NCBI RefSeq assembly: GCF_032884065.1
Contig: NC_088868.1
Location: 5,087,647-5,151,646, forward strand
Length of the DNA stretch: 64,000 bases
From: Artemia franciscana
Lineage: Eukaryota > Arthropoda > Branchiopoda > Anostraca > Artemiidae
Direction: 5' to 3'
Under the pieces are notes generated by a model that did not search any database, was not told where the DNA came from, and was given only the letters and a program-made list of their open reading frames with translations. The translations under genes were made by a program, and so were the position numbers. The stretch's first letter is position 1. The number at the start of each line of letters is the position of its first letter. Shown piece by piece: positions 2,640 to 3,576 of the stretch.

Positions 2640-3300
2640 GTTTGTGCATTAGGTTTACTTTTTCTTAACTGTTTTCATCGCTTTCAAAAAACAAAATTAG
2701 AAGAGGAGGAGCTGCTATGATTTTGTTTTCAGTATCATCATTATATTCAATCATATAAGTATACACTTAAGTTTTCTTTGCTAACTCATTGCTTTCAAAA
2801 ATTAAAGTTGAAAGATGAGTAGCCGCTTTTCCCTAATCCTTTCTTTAAAATTATCTTCAGCATCATGAATTTGTTTTCAATGTCATCATTATGTGTATTC
2901 TTATGAGTGGTTTGCCTGTTCTTACTGTGCTCATTTCTCTCAAAAAAGAAAGTTGAAAGATGAATAGCCACTTTTCCCTAATCCTCCCTATAAAATTCTT
3001 TTCAGCATCATGAGCTTGTTTTCAATATCATCGTTATGTGTATTCTTATGAGTGGTCTGCCTGTTCTTACTGTGCTCATTTCTCTCAAAAAAGAAAGTTG
3101 AAAGAAGAGTAGCCGCTTTGCCCTAATCCTCCCTATAAAATTCTTTTTAGCATCGTGAGCTTGTTTTCAATATCATCATTATGTTTATTCTTATGAGTGG
3201 TCTGCCTGTTCTTACTGTGCTCATTTCTCTCAAAAAAGAAAGTTGAAAAATGAGTAGCCACTTTTCCCTAATCCTTCATGTGAAATTGCTTTCAGTTACA
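2640..3300 (+). repeat. 145-bp tandem array of FIGNL1 exon-derived ghost exons
   Basis: Matching anchor points fall at 2675, 2786, 2931, 3076 and 3221, giving an exact 145-bp period for the last four. The true exon has the same anchor at 3355. Each unit carries CTCATTTCTCTCAAAAAAG, AAAGTTGAAAGATGA and CCCTAATCC blocks that match the first 60 bases or so of the real exon, plus flanking intron. In the exon reading frame most copies meet a stop (GAG TAG or GAA TAG) where the exon reads GAG GAA. The acceptor ACAG of the real exon is changed in the copies. They are decayed partial exon duplications, not coding exons. Confidence 0.75.
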
Positions 3301-3351
3301 TCTTTGTATACCCTATATGATTATTTTAATTAGGTTTACCTTTTTTTACAG

Positions 3352-3576
3352 TTCTCATCGAGTTCAAAAAAGAAAGTTAGAAGATGAGGAACCCCTATAC
3401 CCTAATCAGCCTCGCGGGTTTGTGAGTGCTAGACAGCAGAAACTTATTGACGACTCCGAAAAAAATGCTAACCCTGGAGGAACGAAAAAGACGTTAGGAG
3501 TTCGCCGAGGAGTCAGTAACGCCCCTTTTATTCCACCTATTAAGTCAGCTTTGTCAGATGACGGTGGGAATCGCAG
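3352..3576 (+). CDS. FIGNL1: FIGNL1 exon a: linker before the AAA domain
   Basis: Acceptor TTTTTTTACAG ends at 3351. The exon starts with the last base of a split codon and ends with AG of a codon completed by the A at 8783. It encodes about 75 residues: a basic-acidic start (QKRKLEDEE), a [12 protein letters not shown] segment, a [12 protein letters not shown] segment and FIPPIK. This matches the conserved linker between the variable N-terminus and the AAA module of FIGNL1. Its 5' end has been copied several times into the upstream intron (2640-3300). It is the first recognisable FIGNL1 exon in the window. Confidence 0.9.

Follow-up and report, generated by a model that had tools for sequence, protein, structure and literature searches.

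How did several imperfect copies of the beginning of a FIGNL1 exon of Artemia franciscana come to lie in the intron that precedes it? The original prediction held that a segment made of an acceptor and the 5' end of the exon was repeatedly duplicated in tandem, and that every copy but the last decayed. We examined this proposal in the whole stretch of 64,000 nucleotides, here called the window, which has a G+C content of 34% and carries the gene on the + strand. Exons were located with a human FIGNL1 sequence. Six of them join into a single open frame of 407 residues followed by a stop; AG precedes all six and GT follows the first five. Their positions are as follows.

3352 to 3576, + strand: FIGNL1 exon with the duplicated 5' end (AG before, GT after, frame shared with the five further exons)
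8783 to 8990, + strand: FIGNL1 exon (match to human FIGNL1; splice sites and frame)
15541 to 15767, + strand: FIGNL1 exon in which the AAA domain begins (domain match; human FIGNL1; splice sites and frame)
18691 to 18934, + strand: FIGNL1 exon, remainder of the AAA domain (domain match; human FIGNL1; splice sites and frame)
28747 to 28938, + strand: FIGNL1 exon (match to human FIGNL1; splice sites and frame)
36643 to 36771, + strand: last coding exon of FIGNL1 including the stop (match to human FIGNL1; AG and frame)

The best PDB matches of the joined exons were chains of Fidgetin-like protein 1 (E 3e-148, 3e-145 and 4e-118), and the predicted protein contains an AAA core, an AAA lid and a Vps4 C-terminal domain. 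These matches identify the gene as FIGNL1, the name it had been given from the letters alone. The N-terminal portion of FIGNL1 was not found within the 64-kb window. Exon 3352-3576 aligns with residues 280-352 of human FIGNL1 (E 0.003); in this match, its FVSA codons (3419-3430) stand opposite human FKTA. PMC6440994 places the RAD51-binding FxxA motif of human FIGNL1 at F295/A298, N-terminal of the AAA core. Neither Rfam (gathering threshold) nor ARAGORN gave a hit anywhere in the window. A search of viral contigs with a FIGNL1 core exon gave at least 600 pattern stretches; among the matches listed, six loci encode a relative with 32-44% identity.

The intron upstream of 3352 contains a tandem array, which TRF delimited as 2785-3275 (period 145, 3.4 copies, 91% matches). 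A repeat search placed in-register copies at 1804, 2661, 2764, 2909, 3054, 3199 and 3333, the last being the exon, so that there are seven exon-like places at offsets of -1529, -680, -569, -424, -279, -134 and 0 from the exon. An nhmmer profile built from five intronic copies recognized seven places above threshold in the 64 kb, all within 1765-3408: its own five members (which include c2661), the exon (E 3e-15) and c1812 (1765-1879; E 1.9e-5), which lies outside the model. The units are listed below.

1765 to 1879, + strand: unit c1812, the most diverged, with exon-like part 1823-1878 (nhmmer E 1.9e-5)
2600 to 2719, + strand: unit c2661, older, with exon-like part 2672-2718 (nhmmer E 1.8e-21, itself in the model)
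2717 to 2861, + strand: unit c2772, more diverged, with exon-like part 2783-2838 (repeat search, self-BLAST, profile)
2862 to 3006, + strand: unit c2917 with exon-like part 2928-2983 (TRF, repeat search, profile)
3007 to 3151, + strand: unit c3062 with exon-like part 3073-3128 (TRF, repeat search, profile)
3152 to 3296, + strand: unit c3207 with exon-like part 3218-3273 (TRF, repeat search, profile)
3274 to 3351, + strand: final intron stretch, made of a unit tail that is older (3274-3295) and the shortened unit of the exon itself (spacing 134 versus 145)

The predicted 145-bp array, its older member at 2675 and the diverged copy near 1830 were thus borne out by TRF, repeat search, profile and shuffles. 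The most distant copy, c1812, outscored all 300 shuffles made from the upstream intron. A search of 1-2588 with only the exon as query missed c1812 (458 of 1000 shuffles scored as well); on direct alignment of c1812 with 3320-3480, seven of 1000 scored higher. The final intron stretch (3274-3351) gave a modest match to the sequence preceding c2661 (15 of 1000 shuffles equally good). We also considered relatives of the unit on viral contigs. An exact 20-mer was present at two loci there with nothing strong beyond it, and we ascribe this to chance.

The similarity does not end at the exon border. Self-BLAST of 3330-3590 matched 3330-3398 to 2649-2718 in c2661, the copy closest to the exon (81% over 70 nt, E 6e-13), 3333-3407 to three array units (75-76%) and 3354-3407 to a fourth (78%). 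With coding sequence only (3352-3577), the score against intron 1500-3330 was 49, and the best of 1000 dinucleotide shuffles reached 31. A similarity that stops at 3351, the outcome that would speak against an origin from the exon, is excluded by this result, and the predicted sharing of about 60 exon bases together with upstream intron is clear over 56 exon nucleotides. From 3408 onward, the exon resembles the intron at shuffle level (500 of 1000 as good). The shared part stops 11 nt short of the FVSA codons. For exon positions 3408-3424, similarity was at P 0.02 in c1812 and at 0.22-0.79 in the other four copies tested, which is suggestive of an in-register extension to 3424 in c1812 only. 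Copies lying head to tail thus hold both the 3' end of the intron and the 5' end of the exon, as a tandem duplication crossing the boundary should leave them. Two features mark this boundary.

3350 to 3351, + strand: true acceptor AG (AG at one of the seven aligned places)
3352 to 3407, + strand: exon part clearly common to the intronic copies, 56 nt (self-BLAST, shuffle tests)

At the place aligned with the true acceptor, the intronic copies read TG (four copies), CT and AA; as predicted, none of the six has AG. Opposite the CAG of the exon, four of the six read CTG, and five lack CA. All six also contain an in-frame stop. In the four array units it is a TAG at codon 13; in c2661 it lies at codon 16 and in c1812 at codon 5. 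The stop had been described as following directly after a shared GATGAG. This holds for the four array units, among which GATGAG itself varies, and fails for c2661 and c1812. From the measured divergences, we estimate that drift alone could remove AG from all copies with a probability of roughly 0.06 to 0.11; the loss is therefore no proof of selection against upstream acceptors. Tandem exon duplication can yield mutually exclusive exons. The FIGNL1 copies resemble such a duplication in being tandem copies of exon sequence within one gene, but differ in comprising the 5' part of the exon only, with no homologous acceptor AG and with a stop in frame in every case.

The copies are unequally diverged. 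Over a 60-column block, two to three positions separate any two of c2917, c3062 and c3207, and c2772 differs from these three at 14 to 15. Differences to the exon number 14 for c2661 and 22 for c1812; 17 of the latter are transitions, as expected from decayed homology. In its final 23 positions, c3207 has seven and eight differences from c2917 and c3062, which differ from each other there at one; in its other 122 positions, the corresponding figures are eight and seven. Since c3207 is unlike its neighbours in these last 23 positions, we place the end of the latest duplication burst probably near 3273 and take the tail in front of the exon to be older. In a tree from the 60 columns, which includes no outgroup species, the shortest deep branch is that of the exon (about 0.10), and the joining of c1812 with c2661 is supported at 39% (200 bootstraps) or 0.205.

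The direction of copying was addressed with the CpG sites of the exon. At 3359, CG is present in the exon and c2661; c2772 has TG, c1812 CA and three units TT. At 3413, the exon and c1812 have CG, c3207 has TG, c3062 and c2917 have TA and c2772 has TT (c2661 is not comparable). The exon CpG at 3415 corresponds to TG in c3207, TA in three units and CT in c1812. Most of these states in the copies are the forms that decay of CG would be expected to give. Together with the short exon branch, they favour, short of proof, copying from exon to intron. At the acceptor base, a hand count of changes made CAG and CTG equally good candidates for the ancestor.

We consider it likely that the boundary segment was duplicated in tandem repeatedly, that all upstream copies decayed and that the copy belonging to the exon was kept; register, shuffles, AG loss and stops all support this central claim of the original prediction. 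A segment of about 145 bp, comprising the 3' end of the FIGNL1 intron, its acceptor and at least 56 nt of the next exon, would have undergone tandem duplication repeatedly, at separate times. The downstream acceptor, when used, would give the normal mRNA, and use of an upstream acceptor would add intron and stops. Splicing would have stayed with the acceptor adjoining the intact exon, so that upstream copies became intron and, once freed, lost AG, acquired stops and drifted. A later burst, probably through slippage or unequal exchange, would have produced the near-identical units c2917, c3062 and, for its main part, c3207. What is now seen in the intron is most simply read as inert remains.

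The opposite order of events is unlikely, although several observations agree with it. An intronic minisatellite may have come first, its last unit then gaining an acceptor (CTG to CAG) and the FIGNL1 exon being lengthened by about 19 codons from repeat DNA. The copies would then be the source, not the remains, of the first ~19 exon codons adjoining the RAD51-binding motif. The prevalence of CTG among the copies and the lack of CA in five of six fit this order, as does the end of the shared part just before the FxxA codons. The exon alone has no significant PDB or Pfam match, and the FIGNL1 alignments of the joined protein in PDB begin at residue 37, past FVSA, which also agrees with such an extension. 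The array does resemble an intronic minisatellite in its head-to-tail 145-bp units, 91% alike by TRF, with divergence varying along the array; unlike one, it has a functional acceptor and coding sequence as its last unit. Indirect evidence stands against a minisatellite origin: the CpG states and the short branch of the exon suggest that the exon state is the older one, and c1812 shows the weak in-register extension beyond 3407.

It is still less probable that the units act as poison exons or as decoys with a role in tuning FIGNL1 splicing. In each unit tail, a T-rich run does precede another CAG or TAG (1900, 2732, 2860, 3005, 3150 and 3295), a feature overlooked in the original prediction, and reading from any of these six sites meets a stop within 4 to 16 codons (16 from 2732). 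With rough, untrained splice matrices, which discriminate poorly, scores ran from -1.66 to 7.59 for the six real acceptors and from -0.66 to 4.04 for the five real donors. On this scale, the best three tail sites reach 3.1 to 3.4 versus 3.8 for the true acceptor, and GT 3155, the best donor in 2600-3351, scores 0.73, which exceeds two real donors and falls below the other three. The best candidate cassette by these scores would be 3006-3154, bounded by the tail acceptor at 3005 and GT 3155 and holding the exon-like part of c3062. Against such a role, the tail sites rank only 6, 9, 12, 16, 26 and 34 among the 187 AGs in 1-3351, and the homologous place has no AG in any copy. The suggested poison exons or interference with splicing are thus not supported. 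A dispersed repeat or transposon adjoining the exon by chance is the most improbable origin: repeats are many in FIGNL1 introns, but this unit matches only seven places in 64 kb, all at 1765-3408, and includes sequence of exon 3352-3576 itself.

Other repeats were observed in the window. A second array, of 125-132-bp units, occupies 25128-25390 and 27866-28747, on both sides of an array of ~295-bp units (25583-27727), which suggests that the two form one composite repeat or transposon. The last partial copy of the second array supplies the acceptor of exon 28747; 27870-27904 and 28713-28747 are 94% identical over 35 nt, and the similarity ends at the AG. Several of its units retain CAG at the acceptor-equivalent place (TTTCAGGGTAATT). 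We asked if arrays ending at acceptors are over-represented and found nothing special: a direct repeat within 4 kb exists for one of six 60-nt acceptor flanks (28747 only; the 3352 flank fails) and for 187 of 1000 random intronic 60-mers. Further arrays in FIGNL1 introns lie at 5108-5916 (period 58), 10423-10645 (78), 10889-11246 (30) and 19093-19594 (~70-78). With tandem duplication this common in FIGNL1 introns, one array that crosses an acceptor is not startling.

Elsewhere, 49592-50437 is an array whose 120-bp units show a higher-order period of 241 (94% matches); it includes a minus-strand open frame of 113 aa at 49846-50187. A 189-nt dispersed repeat is present in two copies, 94% alike (17343-17531 and 42718-42906); we take it to resemble a tRNA-derived SINE, and ARAGORN finds no tRNA in it. 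Open stretches at 167-633 and 20000-21500 are presumably candidate pieces of a LINE-type reverse transcriptase (motif 'FADDT'). The minus-strand ORF 52439-52783 appears to us to resemble Mediator subunit 21, and Pfam at 0.001 gave no match for it.

A literature search on the FIGNL1-intron array, mostly among open-access papers, returned no title about it. PMC4974935 describes, in a potato RdRp gene, a tandem duplication crossing the 3' side of an intron and the 5' side of an exon. This was a single duplication with ten sites differing between the copies, and it created a new intron whose splicing was confirmed by RNA-seq reads. The duplicated segment in FIGNL1 has the same make-up. FIGNL1 differs from the potato gene in that six copies, all intronic and strongly decayed, lie upstream of the acceptor in use; moreover, an existing intron appears to have been lengthened, judging from its letters, whereas potato gained a spliced intron. 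The array is clearly a real and fairly ordinary tandem duplication, of a boundary-crossing kind already known from the potato gene.

If our preferred reading of repeated duplication and decay is correct, this FIGNL1 intron holds a fossil series, in which copies of several ages stand together, each without the acceptor AG, and duplication across an acceptor may lengthen an intron with no change in the protein. Whether upstream acceptors are lost faster than expected from drift could be tested on a collection of such cases, but not on one.
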